Part shown: piece by piece, positions 8,327 through 35,715 of the stretch
Layout: the number at the start of each line of letters is the position of its first letter
Numbering within the stretch: the first letter of the stretch is position 1
Assembly (NCBI GenBank): GCA_031281585.1
Contig: JAITFE010000031.1
Span: 1 to 45,476 of the forward strand
Reading direction: 5' to 3'
From: Bifidobacteriaceae bacterium
Lineage (GTDB): Bacteria; Actinomycetota; Actinomycetes; Actinomycetales; WQXJ01
Length of the DNA: 45,476 bases
Program-made: the position numbers and the translations under genes
The notes under the pieces: model-generated
What the model saw: only the letters and a program-made list of their open reading frames with translations
What the model was told of the DNA's origin: nothing
The model's database searches: none

Positions 8327-9721
8327 ATGACACGTGAAATGGCGCGACCGAAGACCGAGGCCGAACGCCGCGCGGCGCCGCAGGGCGACAACGCCCGGAC
8401 CGCAGCCGACCCCCGTGCCGGGGGGAGCGCCGACCCGGCCCGACCGGAACTGGCACCCGACGCGCGTGCGCCTGAGGCCGCACAATCCACAGAATCACCG
8501 GGATCGCCTCAGCCGGGCTGGCGGCGCGCAATCACGGTGATCTGGTCCGGCCAGGCCGTCTCGATTCTGACCACCTATTCGGCCAGCTTCGCCGCCATGT
8601 GGCACATCACCGCCACCACCGGCTCGGCGCTCTATCTGGCGGTAGCCGGAATTGCGGCGCTGGCGCCCACTGGAATCCTCAGCCCAATCGGCGGCCTGGC
8701 CGCAGACAGGTTCGACCGCAAACGCCTGATGATCGCCGCCGACTCGACCGTGGGCGTGTTGTCCCTGGCCATCGCCGCAATCGTCTTCTACTTCGAAGCG
8801 CCGATCGGTGTGCTGCTGGCCTTCCTGGCCGTCAGGGGCGCCGCCCAGGCCTTCCATTCGCCCGCGCTGACGGCGGCGTTGCCGACCATGGCGCCGGAGT
8901 CGCAACTGGTGCGGATCAACTCGCTCAGCCAGACCTTGATCGCCTTGGCCGGCATTGTGGGCCCGGTGCTGGGGATCTTCCTCTACCAGGCCCTCGGCTT
9001 CGCGGGCGTGTTGGCCCTTGATGGGGCAGGCGCGGCGGTCGCCTGCCTGACCATGGCGAGAGCCAAAGTCCCGCGCCTGAGCCAACGGCCGAAGACCAAG
9101 CCGCTCGCCGACTTCGCCGAGGGCCTGGCGGCCTTCGCCGCCGACCGCTCGCTTGGCGCCCTGATTCTTTTCTGCGCCGCCGTGATGCTGATCGCAATGC
9201 CGGCCGGTTCGCTGTTCCCGCTGATGGTGTACCAAGTGTTCGAAGGCGGCGGGTATCACGCCTCGCTGGTGGAGGTGGTCTGGTCGGTCGGCCTCCTGGT
9301 CGGCTCCGCGGCGCTGGTGGTGTGGGGCGGCGGCCGCCGGCCTATGCGGATCGCGTTGGCCGCCACCTTGGCCCTCGGGGCGGGACAAGCCGCGTGCGGC
9401 CTGCTCAAACCCGGCCAATTCGCCGTGTTCGCCGTGCTGGCCGGGATCATGGCGACCGCGATCGGCATGTTCACGGCTCCGCTCCTGGCTGCCACGCAGA
9501 AGCGCGTGCCGCCGGAACTGCTCGGCCGGGTGACCGGCTTGTTCCAAACGGTCATCACCCTGGCGGCACCAGTCGGTTTGGTCTTCACGGGCTTCGGCGC
9601 CCAGCGTCTGGGACTCACCACCTGGTTCGCCGTCAGCGGCACCGCTGTGGTGGGCGTGGCCATACTGGGGCTGATGTCAAGACGTCTGCGGGACCTGGAC
9701 GCGCCGGCGGCCGTGACGTGA
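8327..9721 (+). CDS. MFS efflux transporter, macrolide/multidrug type
   Basis: A 464-residue inner-membrane proton antiporter of the MFS_3/MefA-like group. A hydrophilic N-terminal extension of about 60 residues (charged, rich in Pro, Ala and Arg) precedes about 12 hydrophobic segments. The loop 2-3 signature GGLAADRFDRKRL lies near residue 122. The start has an excellent ribosome site, AAGGAGGAGAA, at 8310-8320. The gene is divergent from the MerR-family gene and controlled by the promoter between them, so the pair is probably a drug-inducible export module. The substrate cannot be read from sequence. The extension is longer than usual, and internal starts such as the ATG at 8339 are possible. 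Confidence 0.85.
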   Translation: MTREMARPKTEAERRAAPQGDNARTAADPRAGGSADPARPELAPDARAPEAAQSTESPGSPQPGWRRAITVIWSGQAVSILTTYSASFAAMWHITATTGSALYLAVAGIAALAPTGILSPIGGLAADRFDRKRLMIAADSTVGVLSLAIAAIVFYFEAPIGVLLAFLAVRGAAQAFHSPALTAALPTMAPESQLVRINSLSQTLIALAGIVGPVLGIFLYQALGFAGVLALDGAGAAVACLTMARAKVPRLSQRPKTKPLADFAEGLAAFAADRSLGALILFCAAVMLIAMPAGSLFPLMVYQVFEGGGYHASLVEVVWSVGLLVGSAALVVWGGGRRPMRIALAATLALGAGQAACGLLKPGQFAVFAVLAGIMATAIGMFTAPLLAATQKRVPPELLGRVTGLFQTVITLAAPVGLVFTGFGAQRLGLTTWFAVSGTAVVGVAILGLMSRRLRDLDAPAAVT

Positions 9722-9789
9722 CCCCGGCGCCGACTGCCCGGCCCCAGAATGCGCGCCCCCCAGCCGCGCGAGCCAGCCCAGCCTGGTCG

Positions 9790-9806
9790 GCCGGAGTTCT
9801 TCCGGC
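9790..9806. terminator. Possible bidirectional hairpin between convergent genes
   Basis: GCCGGA and TCCGGC form a 6-bp stem with a 5-base loop between the stops of the MFS gene (+) and the membrane-protein gene (-). There is no clear T run on either side, so support rests only on position and symmetry. Confidence 0.3.
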
Positions 9807-9839
9807 GTTAGTTGGGCCCAGCCGCCGGGACCCGAGCCG

Positions 9840-10958
9840 CTACGGGGCTTCAAACTTGAGGGACGTCACGCCGGACACGTCCACCCGTTGGCCGTTCTCC
9901 AAGGTGACCTGGACTGGGGGAACGTCATCGGCTTTGGGCTTCACTATCTCGTTGACCACGGGCACCCCGTCCGGCGAGTAAACCCTCAAGTTGCCAGACC
10001 ATTCCCCGACCACCGCGACCTCGTAACTCCCGGCCGGGATGTCCAGGCCAACCACGTAGTTTCCTGGCGTGACGTTGGTCGCCAGCTTGGTTTCCGCCGG
10101 GGTCAGGGTGATCGGGGAGACGCCCTCCCAATGCACCAAGTCGCCTTCCGCCAGGTCGGTGACGTATTTCGCGGCGCCCAGCTTGAACTCGCCTTCGCCG
10201 AGCAGTTCGACGGCTTTGAGCGGGTCGGCGGGGGATTCGATGCGGAGGTTGCCCGTGTCGTCCGGATCGGTGGTGATCGCGTAGTGGCCGGGAGATATTT
10301 CGACTCCCACGGTGTACGTGCCAGACGGCAGCGACACCTCGGTCGCAAGGGTGTTGTCTCGGGTGCCTTGCACCGGCTCGCCGCCCGTCTGAGGAGCAGG
10401 GGCGGTTTCGGATTCGGTAGGCGGCGCCGAAGTCGCAGCCGTCGCCCCGCCGCTCGGTTTGTCTGCTGCGGAGTTGTCGTCAGACCTGGTCAGAGCAAAA
10501 GCCCCGGCCACGCAGGCGGCCCACGCCCCCAGCACGGCGATCCAGAACCAGGGCCGCCGGAAGAGCGGCTTGGCCTTGCGCGGGGAACCCGGCGGTCCGG
10601 GCGGACCGGGCTCTGGTGGCTGGCCCGGTTGCGCGGCCTGTTGGGCCGCCGGTTGGCCGGCGTAGAGCGGGGAAGAGGAAGCCGGGCCTGCAGGGTCGGG
10701 CGGTTGCACGGGAGCCGCGCCAACGTAGAACCCCGGAATCTCATTGCCGCCCGCGCCGGACGGTTGCCCTCCATACGGTTGCCCGGCATACGGTTGCCCC
10801 GAATAAGGAGACGGGCCCAAGGGCGGGGCGCCGGGGGGCGGAACGAGCCCGCCGCCGCGCGGGACGGGCGCGAACGCGGTCTCCGGCTGCCCGGACGCGC
10901 GCGTCGGCCGGGGCCGCGTCGGGTCGGGGCCAGCAGTTGGCGGAGGAGGCACTGTCAT
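9840..10958 (-). CDS. Proline-rich single-pass membrane protein with duplicated extracytoplasmic domain
   Basis: A 372-residue protein of unknown role. Residues 1-130 are a disordered cytoplasmic stretch very rich in Pro, Gly and Gln, with tandem SGQPYAGQPYGGQPSG-like motifs. A transmembrane helix lies at about 138-158 (FWIAVLGAWAACVAGAFAL). A Ser/Thr/Ala linker follows, then two copies of a small domain: about 207-255 (GTYTVGVEISPGHYAI...GNLRI) and about 290-345 (GNYVVGLDIPAGSYEV...GNLRV). The pattern G-x-Y-x-V-G-x-[DE]-I-x-[AP]-G is known from secreted, uncharacterised proteins of Gram-positive bacteria. The architecture (Pro-rich tail, one helix, outside repeats) suggests a cell-envelope sensor or scaffold. 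It starts at ATG 10958 and appears monocistronic. Confidence 0.75.
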   Translation of the reverse strand: MTVPPPPTAGPDPTRPRPTRASGQPETAFAPVPRGGGLVPPPGAPPLGPSPYSGQPYAGQPYGGQPSGAGGNEIPGFYVGAAPVQPPDPAGPASSSPLYAGQPAAQQAAQPGQPPEPGPPGPPGSPRKAKPLFRRPWFWIAVLGAWAACVAGAFALTRSDDNSAADKPSGGATAATSAPPTESETAPAPQTGGEPVQGTRDNTLATEVSLPSGTYTVGVEISPGHYAITTDPDDTGNLRIESPADPLKAVELLGEGEFKLGAAKYVTDLAEGDLVHWEGVSPITLTPAETKLATNVTPGNYVVGLDIPAGSYEVAVVGEWSGNLRVYSPDGVPVVNEIVKPKADDVPPVQVTLENGQRVDVSGVTSLKFEAP

Positions 10959-12944: not shown

Positions 12945-13045
12945 CGGGCCACGCTCTCTCGAACGTGGTGGTGATACCGGTAGGCTACCAGGCCAGCCGC
13001 CCCTTCAGGTGGGGCGCGAAGCCGCGACAGAGACAAGGACCCCCG

Positions 13046-13684
13046 GTGCCCGGGCGACGATTGATCGCCTATATCGATGGGCTGAACCTTTACCACGGCC
13101 TGCGTCAAACGATGGGGCACCGCTGGCTGTGGCTCGACGTGGTGGAGCTCGTCCGCTCGCTGAGACCGGCCAGCGACCTTGTGCGCGTCAACTACTACAC
13201 CGCGATGACGGTCGAATCGCCGGACGCCCAGTCCCGTCAGCAGAACTACCTCAAAGCCCTCGCGGCCGCGAACCCGGCCGAGCTGAGGATCCAAACCGGC
13301 CGCTACCAGCGCCGCTCGCACCTGTGCGAGAACTGCGGGCACAAACGGGTCGTCTACGAGGAGAAGGAGACCGACGTCCACGTCGGCGCCCAACTCGTGG
13401 CCGACGCGGTCCTGGCGCGGATGGACGACGCGCTGGTGGTGTCCGGGGACGCCGACTACCTGCCGGCCATCCGGATCGCGCAGGCCGCCGCCCCTGGGGT
13501 GCGCCTGGTCGGCGGGTTCCCTCCGGGACGCGTCTCGAAACGCATCCAGGCCGCCCTGCCGGCGTCCTTCGTGATCGGGGAAGCCAAGATCCGCCGGGCC
13601 CAACTCCCGGACACGGTGCTCGACGGGCCCTGGGCGTATGCGCGTCCAGCGAAGTGGTCGGCGCCGCCGAACCCGGCCTCATGA
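13046..13684 (+). CDS. NYN-domain (PIN-like) protein, putative ribonuclease
   Basis: A 212-residue cytoplasmic protein of the NYN/LabA-DUF88 group of PIN-like nucleases. The first acidic site is in AYIDGLNLYHG (residues 8-18), and the second is in VVSGDADYLPAI (about residue 130). The middle acidic residues are probably in EKETDVHVGAQLVADAVL. A CENC pair near residue 93 may bind zinc, as in several NYN proteins. GTG 13046 is chosen because AAGGA lies at 13035-13039 with good spacing and the fold begins at once. The longer frame from 12965 adds a low-quality leader. It is isolated and convergent with the MFS gene downstream. The substrate is unknown. Confidence 0.8.
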   Translation: MPGRRLIAYIDGLNLYHGLRQTMGHRWLWLDVVELVRSLRPASDLVRVNYYTAMTVESPDAQSRQQNYLKALAAANPAELRIQTGRYQRRSHLCENCGHKRVVYEEKETDVHVGAQLVADAVLARMDDALVVSGDADYLPAIRIAQAAAPGVRLVGGFPPGRVSKRIQAALPASFVIGEAKIRRAQLPDTVLDGPWAYARPAKWSAPPNPAS

Positions 13685-13739: not shown

Positions 13740-15281
13740 TCACCGGGCGGTTCTGCGGGCCCGCCGGCGCGTTCCCGCCTCGAAGCGTTCCTCCGGCACG
13801 CGCAAGACCGCCGCCAATGCGAGCAGGGCGGCCAGGCAGCAGCCGGCCAAGTCCAACCCCACGGCGGTGGCGAAGCCGGTCTCAATTGACTGGCGCACCG
13901 GCCCCGGCAATTCCGCGAGCCCGGCCGTGTGGCCCAAGTCGAACACTGCCCCGGGCGGCAAGGCGGTGCCGTCAATCCGCATTTGCGCGGCGATTCGGGC
14001 CTGGGCGGCGGCGAACAGCACGGCTAGCTGAACGGAGGCACCGACCGTCAAAACCATGCTCTTGACCAGGGCGGTCGCACCGGAGGCGGTGGCGTATTCG
14101 GCGGGCGGCACCGACCGTTGAAGGGCCACCTCCAGCGGCGCGAAAGCCAGGCCCACGCCCAAGCCGTAGAGGAAAACCGCCAGGCCGGCCAAGGGCCAAG
14201 GCGCCGTGTAACCCAACGGCGCGACCGCCGCTATCCCCACCGTCATCAGCCCGAACCCAACGGCGGACTGAAGCTTGTAGCGGCCGGTTCGAGACATGAA
14301 GACGCTCTCGGCGAAGCTCCCCGCCAGGGTACCCAGAATCTGCGGCCAGATCAGCCAACCGGCCAAAGCGGGGGACGCGCCACGTGAAATCTGCCAGTAC
14401 AGCGGCAACACATAGGCGACCCCGGCGGTGGCGAAGTACCCCAGCATGAGGGCGGGCAGACCCCGCCGGAACTGTGGACCCCGCAACATGGCGAGGGGAA
14501 GGACAGACCGCGGGCCCGCAGACCGCGCCGACAAGTAGAACGCGCCAAACGCCCCAAACGCGACCCCCATGCAAACCAACACCGTCGGGTTGGCGCCGCT
14601 CAAATCACGCGCGAACTGAGGCGCCAGCGCCAACGCCCCCACCCCCAACACCAACAGGGCCCCCCCGCGCATGTCAATCCGCGCTGCGGTCCGCTGGTCG
14701 GGGAGACGCCGCGCTGCCCAGACCGCAGCCAGGTTGGCCACTATGACGGGCACCTGGACGAAGAACAGCCAACGCCAACCGGCCACTCCGGCGATCTGTC
14801 CGGCGCTTGCGATCAGGCCTCCCAACGGCGCCACGGCCACGCCCGCCACATAGGCGGCGGTGAAGAAGCCCACATAGCGTCCCCGGTCCTTGGGAGGAAT
14901 GGCGACATGCACAAAGGCCTGGGCGACAGGCCAGGCCGCGGCGCCTCCGGCGCCTTGAAGCGCACGCCAGGCCGCCAGTTCCAGCATTGACCGGGCCATG
15001 CCGCACCCCGCCGTGCCCACCGCGAACAGGATCAGCGCCGCCGCCAGGAGCTGTGGCCGCCCGCGCGTGTCCGCCAGGCGTCCCCAGAACGGGATGGTCG
15101 CGGCCCCGCCCGCCAGGAAAGCGGTGGTGACCCAAGCCTGCTGCTCAAACCCGCCCAGCGAGTCCCCGATCACCCGCCACCCGACTGATGTCACCATCCC
15201 GTCCAGTCCACCGACGAAGGTGAGTGGCACCATCACCAAAGCTGCTGCGCGGGCGCGCTGGGAGTGCCCGTGTGCGTTCAT
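13740..15281 (-). CDS. MFS drug/metabolite transporter, DHA2 (14-helix) type
   Basis: A 513-residue membrane protein of the EmrB/QacA-like family with about 14 hydrophobic segments. The motif A region reads FWGRLADTRGRPQLL (about residues 65-80), and antiporter motif C-like glycines follow. The start ATG at 15281 overlaps the HAD stop by one base (TGATG), so translation is coupled, and this is the last gene of the long operon beginning with the RpiR regulator. In that setting it may export a product or by-product of the imported substrate rather than a drug. The C-terminus is Arg-rich and short. Confidence 0.83.
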   Translation of the reverse strand: MNAHGHSQRARAAALVMVPLTFVGGLDGMVTSVGWRVIGDSLGGFEQQAWVTTAFLAGGAATIPFWGRLADTRGRPQLLAAALILFAVGTAGCGMARSMLELAAWRALQGAGGAAAWPVAQAFVHVAIPPKDRGRYVGFFTAAYVAGVAVAPLGGLIASAGQIAGVAGWRWLFFVQVPVIVANLAAVWAARRLPDQRTAARIDMRGGALLVLGVGALALAPQFARDLSGANPTVLVCMGVAFGAFGAFYLSARSAGPRSVLPLAMLRGPQFRRGLPALMLGYFATAGVAYVLPLYWQISRGASPALAGWLIWPQILGTLAGSFAESVFMSRTGRYKLQSAVGFGLMTVGIAAVAPLGYTAPWPLAGLAVFLYGLGVGLAFAPLEVALQRSVPPAEYATASGATALVKSMVLTVGASVQLAVLFAAAQARIAAQMRIDGTALPPGAVFDLGHTAGLAELPGPVRQSIETGFATAVGLDLAGCCLAALLALAAVLRVPEERFEAGTRRRARRTAR

Positions 15282-16015
15282 CAAGTCTTGGCCCTCCCCG
15301 TCGCGGCCGCAGGCAGCCCTCGGTCCTGCGCTGGCCCCGGCTCACCGAGCAACCAGTGGCCCAGCCGAGGATCCGCGAGGCTCGGCGCAGTCCGCACATA
15401 CCGCGCCAAACGCCGGGGCAACACTCGCCGCGCCGTCAACGCTTGCGGCCCTACCAGGAAGGTTGTAAGCCCAGCTCTCGTGGAGGATTCCGCTCCGACT
15501 GCTGAATCCTCTACCGCCGCGCAGTCCACGGGGTTAAGTCCCAGGCGTTCGCATGCGATCCGATAGACGGAGGGATCAGGTTTGGGGGCTGCGGCCTCTG
15601 CGGCGGTCACCACATGGCGGAACACCCCGGCTAGCCCAGCGTTGGCGAGCATGGCGGCGACTACCGAAGGTGGTCCGTTCGAGGCGATCGCTAGCGGGAG
15701 GCGCCCGTTGAGCGCGTTTAGCAGGCCTGCCGCGCCTGGGAGAAGGCTCGGCGGCGCCACCAACGCGCCGTCGCGCAGGGCAGCCTCAACAGCGGTGGTG
15801 ATAGCTGCGGTTTGCTCTTCACAGCTGGCCCATGTGGCGATCGCCTGCCCGGCCGATTCCGCCGAACTGCCTTCCAGAGCCTTCCTTTGCGCACGGGTGA
15901 GTCGCAGGCCCGCTACCGCCGCGCCGCGTTGGAATCCCGCCTCCCAGACGGCCGTGCTGTCGACCAACAGGCCGTCAAGGTCAAAAACGACGCCTTCCAA
16001 CCGCAGGGACCTCAA
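15281..16015 (-). CDS. HAD superfamily phosphatase, beta-phosphoglucomutase-like
   Basis: A 244-residue cytoplasmic HAD hydrolase of subfamily IA. Motif I is FDLDGLLVDS (nucleophile D12, acid/base D14), motif II is ASNGPPS (about residue 113), motif III contains the lysine of APKPDPSVY (about 145), and motif IV is VEDSAVG. The cap domain is alpha-helical, between motifs I and II. The start is TTG 16015, overlapping the preceding ABC gene's stop (TTGA), with AGGGAG upstream. Most genes of this operon are joined by 4-base overlaps, so the unusual start is believable. It probably dephosphorylates a small sugar or polyol phosphate arising from the imported compound. Confidence 0.85.
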   Translation of the reverse strand: MRSLRLEGVVFDLDGLLVDSTAVWEAGFQRGAAVAGLRLTRAQRKALEGSSAESAGQAIATWASCEEQTAAITTAVEAALRDGALVAPPSLLPGAAGLLNALNGRLPLAIASNGPPSVVAAMLANAGLAGVFRHVVTAAEAAAPKPDPSVYRIACERLGLNPVDCAAVEDSAVGAESSTRAGLTTFLVGPQALTARRVLPRRLARYVRTAPSLADPRLGHWLLGEPGPAQDRGLPAAATGRAKT

Positions 16016-16776
16016 AGCGCTCCCTCGGCTGAGCTGAACGACGTTAGGACCAGTTGCTCGGTGTACGGATGCTTGGGGCTGCTCAAGACCTCCGCCGTGC
16101 GTCCCGCCTCCACGATCTGGCCCTGGCGCATCACCACCACCTCCTCGGTTACGTGCCGAATCACTGCCAGGTCGTGGGAAATCAACACCAAACCCAGGTG
16201 ACGCTCCTGGCTCAGCGCGGCCAGGAGATTGATGATCTGCGCCTGTACGGAGATGTCAAGTGACGAGGTGGGCTCATCCGCCACTATCAAAGCCGGGCCG
16301 GCGGCGAGCGCCCGAGCTATGGCAACTCGTTGGCATTGCCCGCCTGAAAGCTTTCCAGGCCGCCGCCGCGCGGCGGTTGCGCTGACCCCCACCGCCTGGA
16401 GCAGTTCATCCGCCACGGCCCCGGCTTCCCGCAGGGTCAGGCCCTGCGTGACGTGTGCGGCCTCCCTGACCGCAGACCTTGCGGACAAGTGCGCGTTGAG
16501 CGCGGCGTAGGGATCCTGATGAATCATCTGAACTCCCTTGCGGAGAGGCGAGCGTCGCCCGATCACTGACCAGGGCCGGCCATTGACGGTGACATGGCTG
16601 CTGGGCAAAGCTCCAACCAACAAGCGGCCCAGAGTCGTCTTGCCGGAGCCCGACTCGCCGACAACCCCAAGGCGAGATGTGCGTGTGGCGGTCAGGGAGA
16701 CGCTGCGCAGCACCTGGTGATTGCCGAATCTGAAGTCGAGATCCTCGGCCTTGACCGTAACCGCCTGGCCGCTCAT
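16012..16776 (-). CDS. Oligopeptide-type ABC transporter ATPase (second ATPase, OppF/DppF-like)
   Basis: A 254-residue cytoplasmic ATPase for the importer encoded just upstream. It has Walker A GESGSGKT, Q-loop HQDPYAALN, signature LSGGQCQRVA, Walker B LIVADEPTSSLD and the switch histidine in ISHDLAVI. It lacks the C-terminal extension found in the partner ATPase, as some family members do. The start ATG 16776 overlaps the partner's stop (ATGA). A longer upstream frame exists but is the shadow of the partner gene. It is expected to form a heterodimer with the 16773-17774 product. Confidence 0.9.
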   Translation of the reverse strand: MSGQAVTVKAEDLDFRFGNHQVLRSVSLTATRTSRLGVVGESGSGKTTLGRLLVGALPSSHVTVNGRPWSVIGRRSPLRKGVQMIHQDPYAALNAHLSARSAVREAAHVTQGLTLREAGAVADELLQAVGVSATAARRRPGKLSGGQCQRVAIARALAAGPALIVADEPTSSLDISVQAQIINLLAALSQERHLGLVLISHDLAVIRHVTEEVVVMRQGQIVEAGRTAEVLSSPKHPYTEQLVLTSFSSAEGAL

Positions 16777-17774
16777 GAAGCGGTCTCCAACACGGCCGCG
16801 CCAACGGCTGTGGGGTCGGTCGCTGGGGCGTGGCACGCCGCCGCCCGGACGGGGCCAAGGCGGCAGGGCTCCGGCGGGGCGTCCGAACAACTGGCAGTTG
16901 CCACCGGGCAGCGCGGAGCGAACCTGCAGCCGCTCGTCAGCCAGGTCGGTTCCGGGGGCTGTCCCTCTATCACTGGAAGGGGACGGCCGGGCGCGGTTCG
17001 TTCGGGCAACGAAGCCAGTAGGGCACGGGTGTAGGGGTGCGCGGGGGCGGCCAGCACCTCGGCGGTTGGACCGCATTCGACTGCCACACCCGCGTACATC
17101 ACAACCACTTGGCCGGTGGCGGCGGCGATGGCGCCAATGTCGTGTGAGACCAACAGGAGTCCAAGCCCCACGTCGCGGCGCAATTCAGTCAGCAAGTCCA
17201 ACACTGAACGCCGTATCGATGCGTCGAGCGCCGTGGTCGGTTCGTCCGCGATCAGTAGTTTCGGACGGGTAGCCAAGGCCAGAGCAATCATCACGCGCTG
17301 GCGCATGCCACCCGAGAGCTCATGCGGGTAGGAGCACAGTAACTCTTGGCTCGGTTCCAGGTGGACGGCTTCGAGCAGTTTGGCGGTTTGCGCGGCCACG
17401 TTCGCGCGGCGGTCATGGTGCCGGATTGTCTCGGCCATTTCCCGTCTGACCTGCCGCAGGGGATCCAGGCTGGAGAGCGAAGCTTGCGGCACCACCGTGA
17501 CCGTGCGGCCCTGGTGGGCGCGCCATTCCTTGGCCGTGGCCCGCGTCATGTCCTGGCCGTTCAAGCGGATCGAGCCGTTGGTGACGACGCCCCCGATCCG
17601 CCCCAGGAGTCCCGCCACTGCCCGCACGGTCATGGACTTGCCGCAGCCCGTTTCGCCGACAAGGCCGACGGCCTGGCCAGGCCCGACGTCGAAGCCTACG
17701 CCGTTCAACACCGCCGCCCGCCCTATTCGCACATGCAGGTTCTCCACCTGGAGCACTGGGTGATGCGCGTTCAT
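16773..17774 (-). CDS. Oligopeptide-type ABC transporter ATPase (first ATPase, OppD/DppD-like)
   Basis: A 333-residue ATPase. It has Walker [10 protein letters not shown]-loop [11 protein letters not shown], signature [10 protein letters not shown], Walker [13 protein letters not shown] and the switch histidine in VSHDIGAI. The C-terminal oligopeptide-type extension carries the cysteine pattern [14 protein letters not shown], known to hold an iron-sulfur cluster in related ATPases. The start ATG 17774 overlaps the permease stop (ATGA). It works with the two permeases and the lipoprotein of the same operon. Confidence 0.91.
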
Positions 17775-18703
17775 TTCTGCCCTCCTGAGTCTTGGCCGAA
17801 CGAGTCGGCGATCAACCCGAATCCGGTGCCCAACACCAAGATCGCCAGTCCTGGAATCAGCGAAATCCACCAGGCCACCGGCAGTAATGAGATGCCTTGC
17901 TGCATCATTTGGCCGAGTTCCGGATGGGGGTCGCCAATGCCCACGCCGAGGAAAGCCAATGAGGCGATGCCGCCCAATGTCGCCACGGCCTGAGTAGCGG
18001 CGTATGAAAGGTTGGTGGAGGCCACGTCCGGCGCGACATGCCGCAGCAGGATCCGCAGACGCCCGTAACCGAGCAACTGTGCCGCGACAACCGACTCCCT
18101 CTCCCGCAGTGAAAGGCCACGAGCCACAGCAAAACGCGTGTAGGGGGCCCAACCGCTGACAACGATCGCAAGAATCAAGGCCGGAGTCCTCGAGGGCAGC
18201 CCGGGAACGGCCAGGCGGTCACCCACGCCGACTGCCAGGAGAAGCACCAGCAGCATGTACGGAATAGCCAAGAAGGCGTCCACCAAACGGAGCGCTACCT
18301 CCCTGACTGCGCGGCCGGAAACGACCAGGAGAAGCCCCAACGCAGTGCCTATGGCCAGGCTGGCCCCCACGCAGGCAACGGTGATCGTCAGGTCCGTCAT
18401 CCCGGCCGCGAACACCCGCGCAAAGACATCACGGCCAAGCTGGTCCGTTCCGAATGGGTGCGACCACGACGGGGCCGACAGGGGTGAACCCGCGAAACTG
18501 GTCGGATCCGACCGTGTCAGGGCCGGCACCAGTATGAACAGCATTGCGCATGCCAAGAGAAGGGCCGCGCCCGCTGAACGTTCGCCGCCTTGCCGAAGAG
18601 CGCTACCAAAGCGGCGGATCGCGCTGGCGGCCGCGGTCATGTTCCGTCGGCTACCGTCAAGGCGGTCCGGCGCCCGCCGGACCGGAGTCGCGGTCGTCGT
18701 CAT
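17771..18703 (-). CDS. Oligopeptide-type ABC permease (DppC-like)
   Basis: A 310-residue inner-membrane subunit with about six helices. After a first helix near residues 48-65 comes HPFGTDQLGRDVFARV, the hallmark of DppC/OppC proteins. The cytoplasmic coupling motif, a variant of EAA, falls in the stretch VVAAQLLGYGRLRILLRHV. The start ATG 18703 overlaps the upstream permease stop (ATGA). The N-terminus of about 40 residues is basic. It is one half of the pore of the importer in the phosphoesterase operon. Confidence 0.9.
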   Translation of the reverse strand: MTTTATPVRRAPDRLDGSRRNMTAAASAIRRFGSALRQGGERSAGAALLLACAMLFILVPALTRSDPTSFAGSPLSAPSWSHPFGTDQLGRDVFARVFAAGMTDLTITVACVGASLAIGTALGLLLVVSGRAVREVALRLVDAFLAIPYMLLVLLLAVGVGDRLAVPGLPSRTPALILAIVVSGWAPYTRFAVARGLSLRERESVVAAQLLGYGRLRILLRHVAPDVASTNLSYAATQAVATLGGIASLAFLGVGIGDPHPELGQMMQQGISLLPVAWWISLIPGLAILVLGTGFGLIADSFGQDSGGQK

Positions 18704-19728
18704 CGCGTCCTCGGATCAATCGCGCGTCCCGCGACCTCGGCAGCCATGTTGCAGGTCACAATCACCAAGGCCGTGAAAATGGTCAAAGCCTGGATAACGG
18801 GGAAATCGCTTGTGTTGATTGCCCCGGTCATGACGTGCCCTATGCCTGGGATCCCGAAGACGATTTCGACAATGACCGCCCCGCTGAGGAGGCCCCCCAT
18901 GCTCAGCGCGACCATGGTGACCAAAGGCAACGCGCAACTCGGGAGCACGTGCGCCAATGTGATCCGCCAGGGGGAGAGGCCCCGCGCCCGGGCGGCTTCG
19001 ATGTGGCCATCCGCCATGACGGACGCGACCCGTTCGCGGACCACTCGCAGGATCATTGGTGTGTACCAGACGCAGAGAGTGGCAACTGGCAGCACCAAGT
19101 AGCGGAAGTTCTCCGGATACCCGTCGCCCCAGCCTCCTGCGGGCAGCCACCCCAGGCGGACGCTCAGCAAGAGGATAAGCGCCAGGGCAATCAGCGCGCT
19201 CGGTGCCGACATGGCCACGGTTGAGGCTCCCCGCATCAAGCGGTCAAAAGAACGGCCCGCCTTGGTGCCGGTTGCAAGGCCGAGGGCTATGCCCAGGACG
19301 GATGAGACTGCCGCGGTCAGAACGGCAACCATGAGGGTTGTGCCTAGCCCGGCGCCAACCAGCTGGGCCACCGACAACTCTGAGTATTGGTAGGAATCGC
19401 CCAGGTCTCCGCCCAGTAGATCGAGGAGGTAGACGCCGAACTGTTGTATCCAGTTGCCCTCAATGCCCAGATCCTGCCGCATTTGCTCGACCAACTCGGG
19501 TGGAACGCTCAACAACAGCGTCACTTGGCGGGCGCGGCCGACTGCGGGATCCTCCAGGGCGAACCGAATCAAGAAAAACGTCACCACCATGACGCCGAGC
19601 GCCACAGAAGCCGCTTGGAACAGTGGCCGCCCGACTCGCAGCGTCCAGCTCCAAGGCCGGATGCTCGCGTGCGCAGACCGCGCCCTCAAAGGGCTCGGCG
19701 GGGCGGTTACCTCAGTTGTGTCGATCAT
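18700..19728 (-). CDS. Oligopeptide-type ABC permease (DppB-like)
   Basis: A 342-residue membrane subunit with six predicted helices. The first helix is at about 38-57, followed by the long loop with LGIEGNWIQQFGVYLLDLLGGDLGDS, which matches the DppB family. The coupling region is HIEAARARGLSPWRITLAHVLP, and the ending IVEIVFGIPGIGHVMTGAI...AIDPRTR is typical. The start ATG 19728 overlaps the stop of the binding-protein gene (ATGA). It pairs with the 17771-18703 permease. Confidence 0.91.
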   Translation of the reverse strand: MIDTTEVTAPPSPLRARSAHASIRPWSWTLRVGRPLFQAASVALGVMVVTFFLIRFALEDPAVGRARQVTLLLSVPPELVEQMRQDLGIEGNWIQQFGVYLLDLLGGDLGDSYQYSELSVAQLVGAGLGTTLMVAVLTAAVSSVLGIALGLATGTKAGRSFDRLMRGASTVAMSAPSALIALALILLLSVRLGWLPAGGWGDGYPENFRYLVLPVATLCVWYTPMILRVVRERVASVMADGHIEAARARGLSPWRITLAHVLPSCALPLVTMVALSMGGLLSGAVIVEIVFGIPGIGHVMTGAINTSDFPVIQALTIFTALVIVTCNMAAEVAGRAIDPRTR

Positions 19729-21356
19729 GGGATCACGTAATAAAGCCCGAAGATGTTGGTGATGACCGTCTCCGGCAGGGAGGTGGCCGCCGTGGTGCTC
19801 AACATTGCCATCGGCAGAATCAGCGAATTGTCCGCCAGGAACTGATCGGCAGTTGCCATCAACTCGGGCAATTCCGCCTCACGCGCGCCCCGGAACTGGT
19901 TCATCAGTTCCGTCAGGGTGGCGGCTTCGGCGCTCTGGCTGAATCCGGGACTGTACGATTCGCCGTACAGGGAAGATGGATCCAGCATTACCTGGCCAAT
20001 GTAGTTGGGGCTGTCCACAAAATACTGTGCGATCGCCAGCGTGAGGCCGAAATCACCTCTCGCCATAACTTCATCGCCGTTTGCGGATGTGACTGGAACG
20101 ATTTCAACCTCAATTCCGATGGCCTTGAGTTGTTCTTGCAGGGCTGTCGCTGAGGCGTTCCGCTGCCAGGTGTTGTCCGACCAGCTAATCAGCTTGACGG
20201 AGCAACCGTCTTCGCAGACGGTGCCTCGCAGCAATCGCTTGGCCTCGTCCAGGTCGCGGGCGAAGGGCTGAACGTTTGGCGGCTCGCCGGTCACAGTCCA
20301 AGGAATGCCGTAGAGCGGGCGGGCGAAGTCGGCGCCGCCCAAGACCAATTCGGCCATTTGCTCGCGGTCAACCGCCAGGTCGATCGCCCGCCTGACGTTG
20401 GCGTCCTTAATCACTGGATCGTTGAAGTTGTACAGGTAGCCGTGGAAGCTGCCTGGCCACCACGCCGGGTCCAGCCGCATGCCGTCAGTGAGCTGCGAGG
20501 CGAGAGATCCGGGGATGTTGTCCATGAAGTCGATTTCGCCGTTCTTCAATTGGGCCAGGCGTGTCGCCGCCTCCGGGACCTTGGTGATCACGATCCGTTT
20601 CACCTGCTGTTCGCCTGCGTAGTAGTTGGGGTTCGCGGTCAGTTCGAACCGTCCGTTTGCGACATCCATCGTTTCGATGGAGTAGCGTCCCGCCGAGATG
20701 GGATGCTCGAAGAACGAGTCGCCCTCGGCCAGGCCTGCGGCGGGGAAAATCAGGGCGTAGGGCTCCGCGATCTGTTTGGCGAAGTCGGTGTGCGGTCGGG
20801 ACAGTTTGACCTCGACAGTCGAGTCGTCGACCGCTTTGATCCCCTCGGTGTCTTGCAGGAACTTGACCGTCCAAGTCATGGGGCCCGCCCGCAGCCGTTC
20901 GAATGACGCCACCACGTCTGGGGCGGTCAAGGATGAGCCGTCTGAAAACTTGAGATCTGGCTTGAGCTTGATGGTCCAGGTCAGGCGGTCAGCGGATTCG
21001 GAAACCGACTCTGCCAACTCCATCCGGTCGCCCTGATCCGCCCAGCCCGGGAGTGCTAGGGTCCCGCCGTAGAGATACCCAATTTGAGCGCCGAACGGTT
21101 GCCAGGTATTGGTGTCCAGACTCGCCGGGGCAGTTTCCGCGGCAATTCGGATGACCTCCGGCACGCCGCCTGTGGCTGAGTTGGTCGGGTTGGCGGCCGT
21201 GGTGGTGTCCACGCAGCTGGCCAGGCTGGTGGCGGCAACGGCCGCGATGGCAGTCACCGCGCAAGCGCGGACCAGAGCGCGAAGCCCCCGGCGGGGGCGC
21301 CGCGAACACCGGTCGGCATGCGGGTGATCAATGATGAGCGAAGCGGGGTCCTTCAT
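19725..21356 (-). CDS. Extracellular solute-binding lipoprotein, family 5
   Basis: A 543-residue substrate-binding protein anchored to the outer face of the membrane. A basic start is followed by a hydrophobic stretch and the lipobox SLASC near residue 46. The mature part has the SBP_bac_5 layout, with LKFSDGSSLTAPDVVASFERL, DNIPGSLASQL, VRRAIDLAVDREQM and GYLYNFNDP. The start ATG 21356 has AAGGAGA six bases upstream. The ATG at 21371 has none. The family normally binds peptides, but some members bind nickel, sugars or other compounds. The neighbouring phosphoesterases suggest a phosphorylated ligand here, which is inference. The C-terminal stop overlaps the permease start. Confidence 0.9.
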   Translation of the reverse strand: MKDPASLIIDHPHADRCSRRPRRGLRALVRACAVTAIAAVAATSLASCVDTTTAANPTNSATGGVPEVIRIAAETAPASLDTNTWQPFGAQIGYLYGGTLALPGWADQGDRMELAESVSESADRLTWTIKLKPDLKFSDGSSLTAPDVVASFERLRAGPMTWTVKFLQDTEGIKAVDDSTVEVKLSRPHTDFAKQIAEPYALIFPAAGLAEGDSFFEHPISAGRYSIETMDVANGRFELTANPNYYAGEQQVKRIVITKVPEAATRLAQLKNGEIDFMDNIPGSLASQLTDGMRLDPAWWPGSFHGYLYNFNDPVIKDANVRRAIDLAVDREQMAELVLGGADFARPLYGIPWTVTGEPPNVQPFARDLDEAKRLLRGTVCEDGCSVKLISWSDNTWQRNASATALQEQLKAIGIEVEIVPVTSANGDEVMARGDFGLTLAIAQYFVDSPNYIGQVMLDPSSLYGESYSPGFSQSAEAATLTELMNQFRGAREAELPELMATADQFLADNSLILPMAMLSTTAATSLPETVITNIFGLYYVIP

Positions 21357-21367
21357 GGTTGTCTCCT

Positions 21368-22801
21368 TCATTCTTGGGGGACCCTGGACGCCCAAGCGAG
21401 CTCCAGGAGGTGGGATGTGGGCTCGATTTCGACGGGCCAGGGAAAAGGCACGGGGCCGACGGCTGAGGTCGTTGACGAAGACGTCCAAGGCTCGGACGGG
21501 GCGAGCCGCCAGAGCAGGCCACCGGGCCCCAACCGAGGGTCGAACAGCAATTCGATCTGCGCCGCCTGCCCCAAATCCAGCGCCGGGCCGTGCCAACGGC
21601 ACCGGTCGGCCGGAGCAGAAGCCGCAGCGGCGCCGCGAAATGCCGCCGCGCCGAGGTCTATGTCCACGAATAGGCGGTGGCTAGCGCAGTCGAAACCGGC
21701 CGCGAAGGCGCCGTCGCTGGACTCGAGCCATTTCACGGCCTCGGCATAGGCGTTCGGGCGTAAGCCGGCATTGACCAGTTGAGAGAGGTCGCCAGTCTCG
21801 CGGAGGCGAAGGTGCAGAATCTCACCTGGCTCCAAGGTCGCCAAGTCTGTGGTCGGGGCTTGTTCGAGGTGCCCGCCCAAGTCCGGGGGCGGCCAGGCGA
21901 GGTGTTCGCGGACTGTGCCCGTGAAATCGAGCACTTGGCAGCGGAGGCCCTGCGCGTCCACCGCCAACTGGGCGACGTGCGGATACTCCTGCGGCCCGGG
22001 CATCATGCCGTGCGGAATTGCCGGGTGGTCCGTTGCGGGGTCGCCTCCTGCGGCGCCGCCGGCCGTTAGCTGAAGTACGCCCCGGTGAACCTGAGCGTCG
22101 AAGGCTAAAACATGGCTGCACAGATAGGCAGTCACGCCATGGCGTACCAAGATGTCCCAGAGCGAGGCTCGCGCACCAGGAGCGAAGCACCAGGGGAGGG
22201 ACGAATAGCCGTTGACCGGGAAAACCGGATAGTGACCGGCCACAAAAACGTATTCTGCGTCGTATCCCGCAGCGAGCGCATCTTCTAGCCAGGCGGCCTC
22301 CAGGCCGGTGAGGCCGCGAACCGGCTGCGAATCGGGCTCAGCGGCCACGTCCGGTTGGTGCAGCGAAACGTAGAGCAAGTTGCCGTGGCGCACCCAATAG
22401 GACAGAGTCTCCTGGCCTGCTGGGCCGTTCCGTGGGAGCCGGTCGGCCCAGTGCTTACGGTACACGCCGTAGGACTCTGGTGAGGGAGTGTTGTGGTTGG
22501 ACGTGGCCTGGTAGATCGTGAGGCCCAGGTCCTGAACCCAACCCATCTCCGAACCGAGCCAGAACGCCCACAGGTCATCACGTGAACCGTCCGCCACCGC
22601 GTCGCCCGGAAAAGCAATGAATTCAGGCGGCGGAGCGAGCCGTCTGACCACCGCGGAATTGCGTGCCAGGCGTGCGCCATTGCCGTATGGGTCTGTTGCC
22701 TCACCCGAACACGAGTCGGAGTACAGCACGAACTGCGCTCCGCTCGGATCGCGCGGCACCAGGGCCGGAATGGACGCGGGCACCGCCCCCCGGCCGCTCA
22801 C
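21368..22801 (-). CDS. Calcineurin-like metallophosphoesterase with variant metal motifs
   Basis: A 477-residue protein. The N-terminal two thirds resemble metallophosphoesterases, but the usual signatures are altered: DSCSG instead of D-x-H, FPGDAVADG as the GD motif, TSNHNT instead of GNH[DE], AGHYPVFPVNGY, and CSHVLAFDAQVH where GHxH is expected. I recall proteins with the same variant set, so this is probably a family trait rather than decay. The last 140 or so residues form a separate domain, perhaps a LamG-like beta sandwich (WHGPALDLGQ...IELLFDPRLGPGG). No signal peptide is seen. GTG 22801 overlaps the upstream stop (GTGA) and removes a junk-like leader. The substrate is unknown. Confidence 0.75.
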   Translation of the reverse strand: MSGRGAVPASIPALVPRDPSGAQFVLYSDSCSGEATDPYGNGARLARNSAVVRRLAPPPEFIAFPGDAVADGSRDDLWAFWLGSEMGWVQDLGLTIYQATSNHNTPSPESYGVYRKHWADRLPRNGPAGQETLSYWVRHGNLLYVSLHQPDVAAEPDSQPVRGLTGLEAAWLEDALAAGYDAEYVFVAGHYPVFPVNGYSSLPWCFAPGARASLWDILVRHGVTAYLCSHVLAFDAQVHRGVLQLTAGGAAGGDPATDHPAIPHGMMPGPQEYPHVAQLAVDAQGLRCQVLDFTGTVREHLAWPPPDLGGHLEQAPTTDLATLEPGEILHLRLRETGDLSQLVNAGLRPNAYAEAVKWLESSDGAFAAGFDCASHRLFVDIDLGAAAFRGAAAASAPADRCRWHGPALDLGQAAQIELLFDPRLGPGGLLWRLAPSEPWTSSSTTSAVGPVPFPWPVEIEPTSHLLELAWASRVPQE

Positions 22802-23676
22802 GCTCCGATCCTTGTCAGTTCGATTTCCGCAAGCACGCCGTAGTGGTCGCTGGCTGGTTGGGCTTTGAACACCACCTGACAGGAGGTGGCGACGGCGCGA
22901 ACTGGCTGGCTCACCCGCAGAGAGTCTGAGCCCCACGTTATGGCATGCCCTTCCGGGCCGTGAACCAATATGTGGTCAATCCGCCGGTGGTGGACCGGTT
23001 CAATCAACCCCGACTCGACGAACGCGGCGACGCGCGGGTTCTCGGTGGTCCAAGTGTGGCCCGGACCGCCATCCCCGGCCACGTCCCAGGCGTTCAGATA
23101 GTGAACGCTGCGCCCATCCAACACTCTGCGTCCAGCGAAAAACTGCATGCAGTCGCTGTCCGGCATCGCGTCGAAGTCCCCGGCGATTATTGAGGGGGCG
23201 TCTTGGCGCAGCGTCGACTCCAAGTCGGCGATTGCGAGCGCATCGCGGCACCGCAAGGCTTCGCCGTTCAACGGCCAGTATGGCTTGACGGCCACGAACA
23301 GAATGTTCACGCCAATCGGCAAGGGGATCACGGCGGCCAAAGCGTTGGGCGCCGGCATGGTCGGGTCGCCTGGGAGCATTGTCCCGACCACGCGGTTCGG
23401 TCGCCAGCGGCTCGCGAGGGCCGTGCCTGCCGAGGCGCCTTGGATGACATCCGAATCATGTACACCCGTCAAGTCGGTCGCGCTGAGCAAGTGTCCCAAC
23501 TGGTCGTACTTGTCGTCTCGGTGGACTTCCTGGAGCGAGACCAGGTCCGGGTCAGCCGACTTGATTGCGTCCCTCAGCGCGTTCTGCCGCGAATCGTCGC
23601 CGGCGTGTCCTTCCACATTCCAGGTGAGCACCCGCAGGGTCATGGTGGCGGGTGAGCTTGGTGTTGGCGAAGTCAT
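22798..23676 (-). CDS. Endonuclease/exonuclease/phosphatase-fold hydrolase
   Basis: A 292-residue DNase I-like-fold enzyme. The active-site residues are visible: N in VLTWNVEGH, E in LVSLQEVHR, D and N-equivalent in IAGDFDAMPDS, D in RRIDHILVHG and the final H in ASDHYGVLAEI. The fold covers nucleases, inositol-polyphosphate phosphatases and sphingomyelinases. No signal peptide is seen, so it probably acts in the cytoplasm. Flanking metallophosphoesterases and an importer favour a phosphodiester or phosphomonoester small molecule over DNA. The start is ATG 23676 with AAGGAAGGG upstream. The internal ATG at about 23643, right before LRVLTWNV, is an alternative. Confidence 0.85.
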   Translation of the reverse strand: MTSPTPSSPATMTLRVLTWNVEGHAGDDSRQNALRDAIKSADPDLVSLQEVHRDDKYDQLGHLLSATDLTGVHDSDVIQGASAGTALASRWRPNRVVGTMLPGDPTMPAPNALAAVIPLPIGVNILFVAVKPYWPLNGEALRCRDALAIADLESTLRQDAPSIIAGDFDAMPDSDCMQFFAGRRVLDGRSVHYLNAWDVAGDGGPGHTWTTENPRVAAFVESGLIEPVHHRRIDHILVHGPEGHAITWGSDSLRVSQPVRAVATSCQVVFKAQPASDHYGVLAEIELTRIGA

Positions 23677-23692
23677 GGGGTCTGGCCCTTCC

Positions 23693-24700
23693 TTATTGGG
23701 TGGTGGTGAGTGTGGGGACGCCTTGGGCGGTCCGCGTCGGCGGTTGCGCGGGGGTCCGTGCTGGCGGCGCAGCGCCTTGGCGCCTGCCCCGCGTTGAGGC
23801 GCGCCAGCGGCGGCCGTTCCAGGTGAAGGCGGTCACCGCCGGATCGATCGTGGTCTCCAAGCAAGGTTCGAATCGAGCCACGGAGTGGCAGTACCTCGTG
23901 GCGCGGAGGGAGCCGCCGGATGCGTCAAGCTCCACAAGGGCAACGTCATGGGGGCTTTCCGCCAGCGCCGCTTGATTGAGTTGGAGGATGTTGCCGCTGA
24001 TGGCGTGCGTGCGCACGTGCAGGTGGCCGGTGAGGGCCAGCACCGGGCCGGGCCAGCGCCGCAGCGCCGCCTCGACCGCGGACAAGTTGGCCAGGTCGCC
24101 GGCGTAGAGCCAGCCGCAGCCCTCGACCCGCCGCCTGACGCTCAGCACCGGGAAGTGCGACGCCCAGATCAAGAGGCCTCCGGCGCCGGATTCGGTGCCC
24201 GATGCCGTCCGGTACGGCCACGTTCGGAACGTCCCGGCGTCCACATGGCCGCCCGCGCCGTCCGCCCGCAGTTCGCCAGCGGCCAGCGTATGGCGGCCCA
24301 GGCGGGTCGCGCCGAACATCCGCAAAGGCCCGCCCGCCGCCGTCAGCGCTTCGGCCATCACCGAAGGCTCCGCCGGGCCGGGCCACGCCATGTCATGGTT
24401 CCCGGCCACCACATAGACCGGTCGGGCAAGAGCCGCGAGCCGCCGCGCGGCCTGGGCGTAGATTTCCGGGTCGGGGCGGTCGGCCAGGTCGCCCAGCACA
24501 AGCGCGGCGTGGACCCGTGAATCCAGCCAGTCGAGCGCCAAGTCCAGGAGGTCGAAGGCTTTGCCCAAGTGGATCGGGTTGTTCCACATTGCGGGGGGCG
24601 ACCCGGCTGCGGCCAGGTGCAGGTCGGTCAGCACGCCGAGGCGCAGGAGGTCCCCGCCATCTTCTTTGGCTGGGGAGGGAGCGCGGACGGTGGTGGACAT
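23693..24700 (-). CDS. Calcineurin-like metallophosphoesterase, complete motifs
   Basis: A 335-residue cytoplasmic phosphoesterase with the full metal-binding set: D-x-H in GVLTDLHLA, GDLADR, VAGNHDMAW, ASHFPV and GHLHVR. It binds two metal ions in the family and cleaves phosphomonoesters or diesters. The C-terminal 60 residues are basic and Pro/Ala/Arg/Thr-rich (about 310-335), probably disordered. It is the first enzyme gene after the RpiR regulator, 7 bases from that gene's stop. The start is ATG 24700, with a weak GAGG nearby. The three phosphoesterases in a row are the reason to suspect an organophosphate pathway. Confidence 0.87.
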   Translation of the reverse strand: MSTTVRAPSPAKEDGGDLLRLGVLTDLHLAAAGSPPAMWNNPIHLGKAFDLLDLALDWLDSRVHAALVLGDLADRPDPEIYAQAARRLAALARPVYVVAGNHDMAWPGPAEPSVMAEALTAAGGPLRMFGATRLGRHTLAAGELRADGAGGHVDAGTFRTWPYRTASGTESGAGGLLIWASHFPVLSVRRRVEGCGWLYAGDLANLSAVEAALRRWPGPVLALTGHLHVRTHAISGNILQLNQAALAESPHDVALVELDASGGSLRATRYCHSVARFEPCLETTIDPAVTAFTWNGRRWRASTRGRRQGAAPPARTPAQPPTRTAQGVPTLTTTQ

Positions 24701-24707
24701 GGGAGCC

Positions 24708-25628
24708 TCAGAGCCTGTGTTCCACGATCACGTCTTGGGTGCGCTTGACCGTCTGGGCGGTGCCGGGGTTCTCAACCACCACGAGCGAGAAGAGGGCGTC
24801 CAGAATGGACAAATGGACCAGGCGGCTGGAGAGGGCCTCAATTCGGTGCGCGGTCTCGCGGGAGCCGCCCACCACGACGAGCTCCGCCAACTCGGTGAGG
24901 GGCGAGCGGGCGAAACTGGTGACCGCTGCGGTCTGGGCGCCGGCCTCGCGCGCGGCCCGCATCGCGGCCAGCGTCTCGAAGGTGGAACCCGTGTGGCTGA
25001 TCGCCAGACAGAGGTCTTGGGGTCCGGTCAGCGCGGCGGCGACATGCTGGGCGTGCGGGTCTGGCAGGTGCATGGCGCAGAGCCCGGCGGTGGTCAGCCG
25101 GTAGGCGGCGTCCTGGGCCAACGGGGCGGAGGTGCCGACCGCGACCAGGAGAATGCGCCGGGCGCGCGCCGCCGCGGAGGCGATCCGCTCCAAGACCTCG
25201 CCGTCAACGGAGCGGCTGGCCTCGATCAGGGCCTCGGCGCCGCCCCGCAGCACCTTGACGGTGATGTCGCGGTAGCCGTCGCCCGCGTCCACCGGTTCCG
25301 GCAGGCGTTGATCCTGTCCCAGGACCTCGCCCGCCAGTCTCAGCTTGAGTTCTTGGAAGCCGCGAAGGCCGAGGCTCTGGGAGAAGCGGACCACCGTGGC
25401 CGGCGACACGCCGACCGCCTGGGCGGTCTCGGTGACGGAGAGGCGAAGCACGTCGCCAGGCTGGTGGAGAACCCAACGCCCAACCCGCTGCTCGGCTTGC
25501 GTCATGGTCTGGACGGCGGCCCGGATCGCCTCCATGATGCCGCCGTCGAGGGCTTGGGGGCCCGGTTGGGCTGCGGGGACCGGCTGGGCCTTGGGCGCCG
25601 CCGGGAGCGTGTCGACTGTCACGTCCAC
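24708..25628 (-). CDS. RpiR-family regulator (HTH + SIS domain)
   Basis: A transcription factor of about 306 residues. The N-terminal HTH of the RpiR type has MTQAEQRVGRWVLHQPGDVL, then the recognition part TETAQAVGVSPATVVRFSQS. The C-terminal SIS domain (about 150-290) has VAVGTSAPLAQDAAYRL and AISHTGSTFET, and this fold binds phosphosugars. The start is uncertain. GTG 25628, 25622 and 25616 give short leaders, the ATG at 25535 begins at the HTH, and none has a clear ribosome site. It heads the 11-gene operon and probably senses a phosphorylated intermediate made from the imported substrate, consistent with the phosphatases that follow. Confidence 0.86.
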   Translation of the reverse strand: MDVTVDTLPAAPKAQPVPAAQPGPQALDGGIMEAIRAAVQTMTQAEQRVGRWVLHQPGDVLRLSVTETAQAVGVSPATVVRFSQSLGLRGFQELKLRLAGEVLGQDQRLPEPVDAGDGYRDITVKVLRGGAEALIEASRSVDGEVLERIASAAARARRILLVAVGTSAPLAQDAAYRLTTAGLCAMHLPDPHAQHVAAALTGPQDLCLAISHTGSTFETLAAMRAAREAGAQTAAVTSFARSPLTELAELVVVGGSRETAHRIEALSSRLVHLSILDALFSLVVVENPGTAQTVKRTQDVIVEHRL

Positions 25629-35610: not shown

Positions 35611-35684
35611 GGCCCAAGTGTACTGCGTGTTAATTCTGTGTTGCCATTCGCCGTTTGTTCTTCCTTTTGCCCCCGCGATGTGGT

Positions 35685-35715
35685 TAGCATCAGACCTGTG
35701 CCGGAACGTTCCGGC
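35685..35715 (+). promoter_or_regulatory. Probable LacI operator and promoter of the second ABC cassette
   Basis: GCCGGAACGTTCCGGC at 35700-35715 is a perfect 16-bp palindrome with the central CG typical of LacI-family operators. A possible -10 element TAGCAT lies at 35685-35690, placing the operator over the expected transcription start. No convincing -35 box is seen. The gene controlled begins at 35754. Confidence 0.7.

Follow-up and report, generated by a model that had tools for sequence, protein, structure and literature searches.

In Agrobacterium, the sugar phosphodiester agrocinopine enters the cell through AccA, a "peptide"-type binding protein of family 5 (cluster C) in the acc system; AccF then cleaves it, and the sugar phosphate released in the cytoplasm is the effector of the regulator (PMC4526662). 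The pocket with which AccA holds pyranose-2-phosphate comprises Asn54, Ser419, Tyr375/376 and Glu510 (PMC4526662). Xanthomonas has a dedicated uptake route for a sugar phosphodiester, the xanthosan system XanT/XanP, and hydrolyses the compound to a sugar phosphate inside the cell (PMC12807533). Here, we investigate an eleven-gene operon on a 45,476-nt contig (JAITFE010000031.1; this whole stretch is referred to as the window) of a Bifidobacteriaceae bacterium, whose genome is a 3.98-Mb high-GC actinobacterial draft. The original prediction, made from the window alone, proposed that the operon takes up an organophosphate and cleaves it stepwise. Since the linkage between phosphoesterases and importer proved to be conserved in related genomes, we consider organophosphate import followed by stepwise cytoplasmic dephosphorylation the best reading, and probably the correct one. 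Most likely, this is a catabolic or scavenging operon for an external cargo, namely a phosphodiester that contains a sugar or a phosphorus ester closely related to it. The earlier proposal holds in outline, although two of the parts it included, the second metallophosphoesterase and the MFS transporter, turned out to be dispensable.

Architecture and conservation of the operon

The operon lies on the minus strand and runs from 25,628 to 13,740 in the order RpiR-MPE1-EEP-MPE2-SBP-B-C-D-F-HAD-MFS, where MPE1 and MPE2 are metallophosphoesterases, SBP is the substrate-binding lipoprotein, B and C are permeases, and D and F are ATPases. All eleven predicted genes are present in the expected order:

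24708..25628, minus strand: RpiR/MurR-type regulator (Pfam HTH_6 6.9e-20, SIS 9.2e-16)
23693..24700, minus strand: MPE1, calcineurin-like phosphoesterase (Metallophos 5.1e-11)
22798..23676, minus strand: EEP-fold (sphingomyelinase/TDP2-like) phosphodiesterase or phosphatase (Exo_endo_phos 4.3e-21)
21368..22801, minus strand: MPE2, purple-acid-phosphatase (PAP)-like (PAP matches 4e-8; start GTG 22801)
19725..21371, minus strand: family-5 (cluster C) substrate-binding lipoprotein, SBP (SBP_bac_5 8.6e-70)
18700..19728, minus strand: ABC permease B of the Opp/Dpp/Nik type (BPD_transp_1 1.9e-37)
17771..18703, minus strand: ABC permease C (BPD_transp_1 8.4e-21)
16773..17774, minus strand: ABC ATPase D with oligo_HPY (ABC_tran 3.6e-29, oligo_HPY 1.3e-20; AGGAGG before ATG 17774)
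16012..16776, minus strand: ABC ATPase F (ABC_tran 2.6e-25)
15281..16015, minus strand: HAD-IA hydrolase of the sugar-phosphatase/beta-phosphoglucomutase type (Pfam Hydrolase 2.7e-23, NCBIfam PGMB-YQAB 1.2e-20)
13740..15284, minus strand: MFS transporter of the DHA2 drug-efflux type (MFS_1 1.9e-38)

Gaps of 7 nt (RpiR-MPE1) and 16 nt (MPE1-EEP) separate the first genes, and 8 of the 10 junctions (EEP/MPE2, MPE2/SBP, SBP/B, B/C, C/D, D/F, F/HAD and HAD/MFS) are 4-nt overlaps, in agreement with the 1-4 bases predicted for most junctions; the HAD/MFS overlap would be 1 nt if ATG 15281 is the MFS start. Promoter- and terminator-like sites are no more frequent within the operon than expected by chance, and, as far as the sequence tells, the eleven genes form a single transcription unit. 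Candidate starts of SBP are ATG 21371 and ATG 21356, the latter with a better ribosome site, while relatives make GTG 25622 the more likely start of RpiR over GTG 25628. By Pfam, the operon does encode four phosphate-ester hydrolases of three folds; no signal peptide is visible in them (no dedicated predictor was applied), which is the basis for calling them cytoplasmic.

When 84,980 species genomes were scanned with an alignment of EEP sequences, 29 loci were returned, the closest of which hold the operon. Two of them, L017 (= G022) and L018 (= G217), come from public metagenome-assembled genomes (MAGs) titled Bifidobacteriaceae that belong to the same genus as the window genome and, judging from their naming pattern, presumably originate from termite-gut surveys. 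L017 contains RpiR-MPE1-EEP-SBP-B-C-D-F-HAD-MFS, i.e., everything but MPE2; L018 (RpiR-MPE1-EEP-MPE2) and L016 (RpiR-EEP-MPE2-SBP) are both cut by contig ends, and these three related MAGs keep 4 to 10 operon genes in order. A fourth version occurs in L023, the Nocardioidaceae MAG Lab288 from the gut of Labiotermes labralis (PMC7024585), where RpiR-MPE1-EEP-SBP-B-C-D-F is followed by a UshA/CpdB-like phosphoesterase and then HAD, and a second, divergent UshA/CpdB-like gene lies upstream of the operon. Four other genomes thus share the gene order, two of which are cut short by contig ends, and in each an RpiR orthologue opens the operon. Because the order recurs both in the related MAGs and in L023, we conclude that the operon genes are not neighbours by chance. 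MPE2 and MFS are accessory, dispensable parts, and L023, which lacks MPE2, has had an unrelated phosphoesterase recruited into the operon. Within the window's own family the operon is patchy, since EEP was found in only 3 of 18 genomes. In L023, MPE1 (9161-9976) is split over two frames at ~9430-9468, which reflects either a real frameshift or an assembly error.

The binding proteins of the window, L016, L017, L023 and L020 (a Pseudonocardiaceae locus described below) form one clade (support 100/99), set apart from seven same-genome paralogues and from the second family-5 protein of the window; no further members were found at E<=1e-85 in 396 sampled actinobacteria. The clade splits into window+L016 versus L017+L023 (100/100 and 99/98). 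The regulator and EEP of L017 are nevertheless far closer to those of the window (76 and 67% identity, respectively) than to those of L023 (45 and 49%). In the four genomes compared, the SBP split tracks MPE2, which accompanies the window/L016 type and not the L017/L023 type. These relationships suggest that a single enzyme core was combined with two importer variants, each specific to its cargo, and that MPE2 goes with one of them.

Properties of the encoded proteins

MPE1 has intact DxH, GD, GNHD, H and GHxH motifs, and D26, H28, D71, N101, H102, H182, H226 and H228 are invariant among its relatives; on this alignment it carries every motif of an active calcineurin-like phosphoesterase. Its relatives in four genomes of one distant genus (105-110 bits in a phylum-wide search) were set aside because they are only 25-30% identical and lie beside ruvAC or in an unrelated context.

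The predicted EEP structure is confident (confidence score, pLDDT, 91), and the nearest solved structure is human neutral sphingomyelinase (Z 28.0, 2.4 A, 251 residues). Bacteroides EEP proteins and TDP2 are also near, and the model superimposes on the mannosyl-6-phosphatase Bt3783 (PDB 4c1r) with Z 25.1 and 2.8 A over 232 residues, at 18% identity. N20, E50, D167, D234, D277 and H278, the catalytic/metal residues, are kept in all or nearly all of 13 relatives. Judged by modelled fold and catalytic N, E, D and H residues, the protein is a member of the Exo_endo_phos superfamily. It nevertheless departs from the usual GD[FL]N and xTH(L) motifs, with GDFDA and xVKP instead (D169 is opposite N and K131 opposite H in the alignment with 4ruw), and these variants, too, are kept in nearly all 13 relatives.

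MPE2, which the original prediction had listed as a variant metallophosphoesterase, can now be described as purple-acid-phosphatase-like with partly lost metal ligands. It resembles the PAP catalytic domain (PAP/TRAP entries of PDB 4e-8, profile 4.2e-7, Foldseek 5e-7), although the model is of low confidence (pLDDT 50), and no fold is assigned to its C-terminal part. The motifs are altered to SDxCSG, SNHN, AGHYP and CSHVL. Motif I reads SDxC, the Tyr ligand is not seen, and CGHDH of human TRAP aligns with CSHVL, so that the last metal-binding His is replaced by Leu and the ligand set is incomplete; D29, D67, N102, H190 and H230 are retained. As the changes are common to three genomes (window, L016 and L018), they do not represent decay, and MPE2 may not be a normal phosphatase.

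The Opp-type ABC importer and its family-5 binding protein share one operon, as they do in acc. At the position of DppA Asp408, the dipeptide anchor, SBP has Phe in the window, Ala in L017 and L023, and Asp in L020, although the alignment with E. coli DppA is of low identity and uncertain in this region. The predicted MFS transporter is EmrB/OtrB/Tcr3-like, with scores far under the cut-offs of those families; by sequence family it is of the DHA2 drug-efflux type and no sugar importer. Phosphosugars are the typical signals of RpiR/SIS regulators such as MurR and RpiR; no common operator was found upstream of RpiR across four relatives.

The window contains further features outside the operon. 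An NYN-domain (putative ribonuclease) gene (12965-13681) is convergent with the operon end. A second, independent operon (34606-43667) has a LacI regulator on the minus strand, followed by a family-5 SBP, a pair each of permeases and ATPases, and an S58 (DmpA-like) peptidase; a C45/AAT-type acyltransferase gene lies further along. This content suggests a system for amide/peptide import and hydrolysis, in contrast to the phosphoesterase operon; since this second Dpp-type operon has amide hydrolases instead, importers and enzymes appear to be matched by cargo. There is also a 300-nt direct repeat (34184-34619 and 43860-44159; 94% identical, 9.5 kb apart); next to its far copy, an open frame (44146-45225, minus strand) repeats the C-terminal part of the LacI gene. 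The repeat, which lies near the contig end, may be a duplication or an assembly artefact.

Proposed function and rival explanations

Given the acc and xanthosan precedents, together with phosphosugar sensing by RpiR/SIS proteins, we propose a scheme of import, cleavage, dephosphorylation and export. The lipoprotein and the Opp-type ABC transporter would carry the intact molecule into the cell, EEP and MPE1 would cleave a phosphodiester or related ester bond, and HAD would strip phosphate from the resulting sugar-phosphate-like fragment, leaving an unusable remainder for the DHA2-type MFS protein to export. The RpiR/SIS regulator may control the operon by sensing a phosphosugar-like intermediate, and MPE2 could be an add-on that serves one version of the cargo. 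The sequences themselves show which genes are present, their order and conservation, the folds and catalytic motifs of their products, and the binding-protein clade; from these we infer the metabolic direction, the order of the steps, the sugar-phosphate nature of the intermediate and export by MFS. Annotation routinely labels such importers as peptide transporters. If the proposal is true, the operon, with one importer clade tied to three or four phosphoesterases, would be a further case of organophosphate uptake by a family-5 importer, outside Agrobacterium, and a concrete phosphorus or sugar source for termite-gut actinobacteria.

Several observations weigh against this proposal. Asp408 is also lost in the window's second family-5 protein, which adjoins amide hydrolases, and, as the alignment is weak, its loss counts little on its own. 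Family-5 proteins take peptides, nickel, sugars or opines, and their sequence is not decisive; AgaA and NikA-type proteins score as high as AccA or higher against SBP. Nucleases also occur among EEP and MPE folds. MPE1 is not detectable in the L016 genome (a 1.9-Mb MAG). The tie between importer and phosphoesterases is loosened by L091, where importer and RpiR have no adjoining phosphoesterase, EEP and a phosphoramidate-like gene set lying elsewhere in the genome. Finally, most of the distant EEP relatives (<=40%) sit away from transporters, and those of Planctomycetes and Nonomuraea (31-38%) show no transporter linkage. In Solirubrobacter (L030, 9962-12090), an EEP relative is directly followed by a 432-aa frame that by eye resembles the UshA-like proteins of L023 and has no NCBIfam match.

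The same genes could alternatively form an ordinary peptide importer co-transcribed by chance with housekeeping phosphoesterases. The importer family is usually devoted to peptides or nickel, and L091 would fit; however, order and content are kept across MAGs assigned to different Actinomycetota families, eight junctions overlap by 4 bp, the operon contains no peptidase and L023 recruited further phosphoesterases, which makes this explanation very unlikely. Salvage of extracellular nucleotides or oligonucleotide fragments (e.g., cyclic dinucleotides or nucleotide cofactors) would assign EEP a phosphodiesterase, MPE1 a cyclic-nucleotide phosphodiesterase and HAD a nucleotidase role. This is suggested by Nocturnin, CNOT6L, PDE12 and TDP2 among the EEP fold relatives, by the CpdA/SpdA cyclic phosphodiesterases as the (weakly) best-matching families of MPE1, and by the UshA/CpdB-like proteins added in L023. 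We nevertheless regard salvage as quite improbable, because no operon version carries a nucleoside kinase, phosphorylase or base deaminase, the regulator family senses phosphosugars and the family matches are weak. A further alternative is an operon for biosynthesis, re-uptake or self-protection. MFS would then export a phosphorylated natural product or its aglycone, with the ABC importer serving for recovery and the hydrolases for activation or detoxification; the DHA2 efflux type of MFS and the relatives of the enzymes in biosynthesis-like Pseudonocardiaceae clusters speak for this reading. Yet neither the window operon nor its termite relatives contain a scaffold-building synthase, glycosyltransferase or ligase, and we find this unlikely.

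As for the cargo, nothing specific supports the glycerophospho-, inositol-phospho- or nucleotide-linked examples given in the original prediction, and the only external clue points to a phosphoramidate-type sugar decoration. In this narrower form of the organophosphate proposal, the cargo would bear a phosphoramidate (P-N) or methyl-phosphoramidate-type decoration, which EEP, MPE1 and HAD take off, or would itself be a phosphoramidate natural product; we consider this possible but doubtful. Equally tentative is the view that the operon takes up and degrades phosphoramidate-decorated sugars or phosphoramidate natural products and that its maker counterparts are Cj1415-1418-like clusters of Pseudonocardiaceae, the termite bacteria being consumers or resistant takers. 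We know of no dedicated phosphoramidate importer-plus-esterase operon, save the accidental entry of agrocin 84 via acc. In Campylobacter, the four proteins Cj1415-Cj1418 are needed to convert glutamine, ATP and CTP into CDP-phosphoramidate 3'-phosphate (PMC11800397), and Cj1416 has been named a nucleotidyltransferase (PMC3546167). The Pseudonocardiaceae gene set was read in each of the 13 sampled genomes positive for NF004508. Side by side, it encodes a PPDK_N + PEP-utilizer protein (NF004508/PRK05849), a protein resembling APS kinase, a C26 amidohydrolase and a MobA-like nucleotidyltransferase, which share the architectures of Cj1418, Cj1415, Cj1417 and Cj1416, respectively. This likeness is drawn from domain architecture, not from direct sequence comparison with the Campylobacter proteins, and the matching of each architecture to each protein is partly our own.

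MPE1 is present in 3 of 297 Pseudonocardiaceae and NF004508/PRK05849 in 13, among which are all three MPE1 genomes (hypergeometric 286/4,322,340 = 6.6e-5, phylogeny ignored); in two of the three, HAD and MPE1 (in one also EEP) adjoin the set, as HAD-MPE1-EEP in L072 and HAD-MPE1 in L073. L020, from Amycolatopsis, carries the set with EEP ~100 bp behind and a convergent MFS-RpiR-SBP-B-C-D-F unit of the window's SBP clade, whereas in L021 the set lies with EEP, and the importer with RpiR is ~60 kb off in the same genome (L091). The set occurs with HAD in L093, L096 and L099 (54% identity to the L072 HAD, against at most 39% for plasmid HADs at >=70% coverage), and G302 holds the set, EEP and MPE1-HAD-RpiR at separate places. 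Moreover, AccA also takes in the phosphoramidate agrocin 84 (PMC4526662). Against a phosphoramidate cargo, L092, L094, L095 and L097 have the set without any operon enzyme, no termite-gut genome reaches the cut-off of NF004508, and Kribbella, which lacks the set, carries an EEP that is just as close. The RpiR proteins of termite and Pseudonocardiaceae loci resemble each other no more than background. RpiR was rejected as a link between these loci because unrelated plasmid RpiRs are equally similar. The distribution of the set would place the same rare enzyme and importer families in consumers without it and in putative makers with it, and their position beside putative phosphoramidate genes would offer an entry to unexplored phosphoramidate chemistry of Pseudonocardiaceae.

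The sets (L020, L021, L072, L073 and L092-L100) are often accompanied by a methyltransferase and a sulfotransferase-fold gene, which could encode a phosphoramidoyl transferase; L021 also holds legionaminic-acid-type genes, and an Azospirillum plasmid (L106) carries a comparable set. On a Microbacterium paraoxydans plasmid (L102, 11989-21160), an EEP relative adjoins RpiR, with a second, fragmented RpiR, a sugar-type binding-protein fragment, a tyrosine-phosphatase-family protein and a metallophosphoesterase nearby, possibly another phosphoester-uptake operon. Rhodococcus (L104) and Dietzia (L105) plasmids show a conserved grouping of RpiR with HD-domain and phytanoyl-CoA-dioxygenase-family proteins, a pair that we take to be the PhnZ/PhnY pattern of oxidative phosphonate breakdown.

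Comparison with known systems

As the original prediction supposed, no description of exactly this gene set was found in the full-text literature searched, which left most subscription papers out of reach. AccF belongs to the glycerophosphodiester phosphodiesterase family, and no AccF-type phosphodiesterase domain is present among the eleven operon proteins. Both acc and the operon combine a family-5/cluster-C binding protein with an ABC importer; however, SBP is not especially close to AccA, cleavage here would rely on EEP, calcineurin-like and HAD enzymes, the regulator is of the RpiR/SIS type and an MFS exporter is present. The xanthosan system follows the same logic of uptake and subsequent hydrolysis with other proteins, namely a TonB-dependent transporter, a 2H phosphoesterase and a ROK regulator, and has no such ABC importer. 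Dpp systems differ in the anchoring Asp408 of DppA, which, as far as the uncertain alignment allows, is not kept in the binding proteins of the window, L017 and L023. Bt3783 shares the EEP fold and provides an example of this enzyme type acting on phosphorylated sugars, albeit in a different organism (Bacteroides) and context. The architectures of the Campylobacter methyl-phosphoramidate (MeOPN) proteins Cj1415-Cj1418 recur in Pseudonocardiaceae clusters, several of which hold relatives of the operon's enzymes or importer, but were not found in the window genome or in its termite relatives; the Campylobacter pathway, in turn, does not include the enzymes of the operon itself. Collectively, the principle of uptake and cleavage is already known from agrocinopine and acc (PMC4526662), and what distinguishes the operon described here is its different enzymes and regulator.

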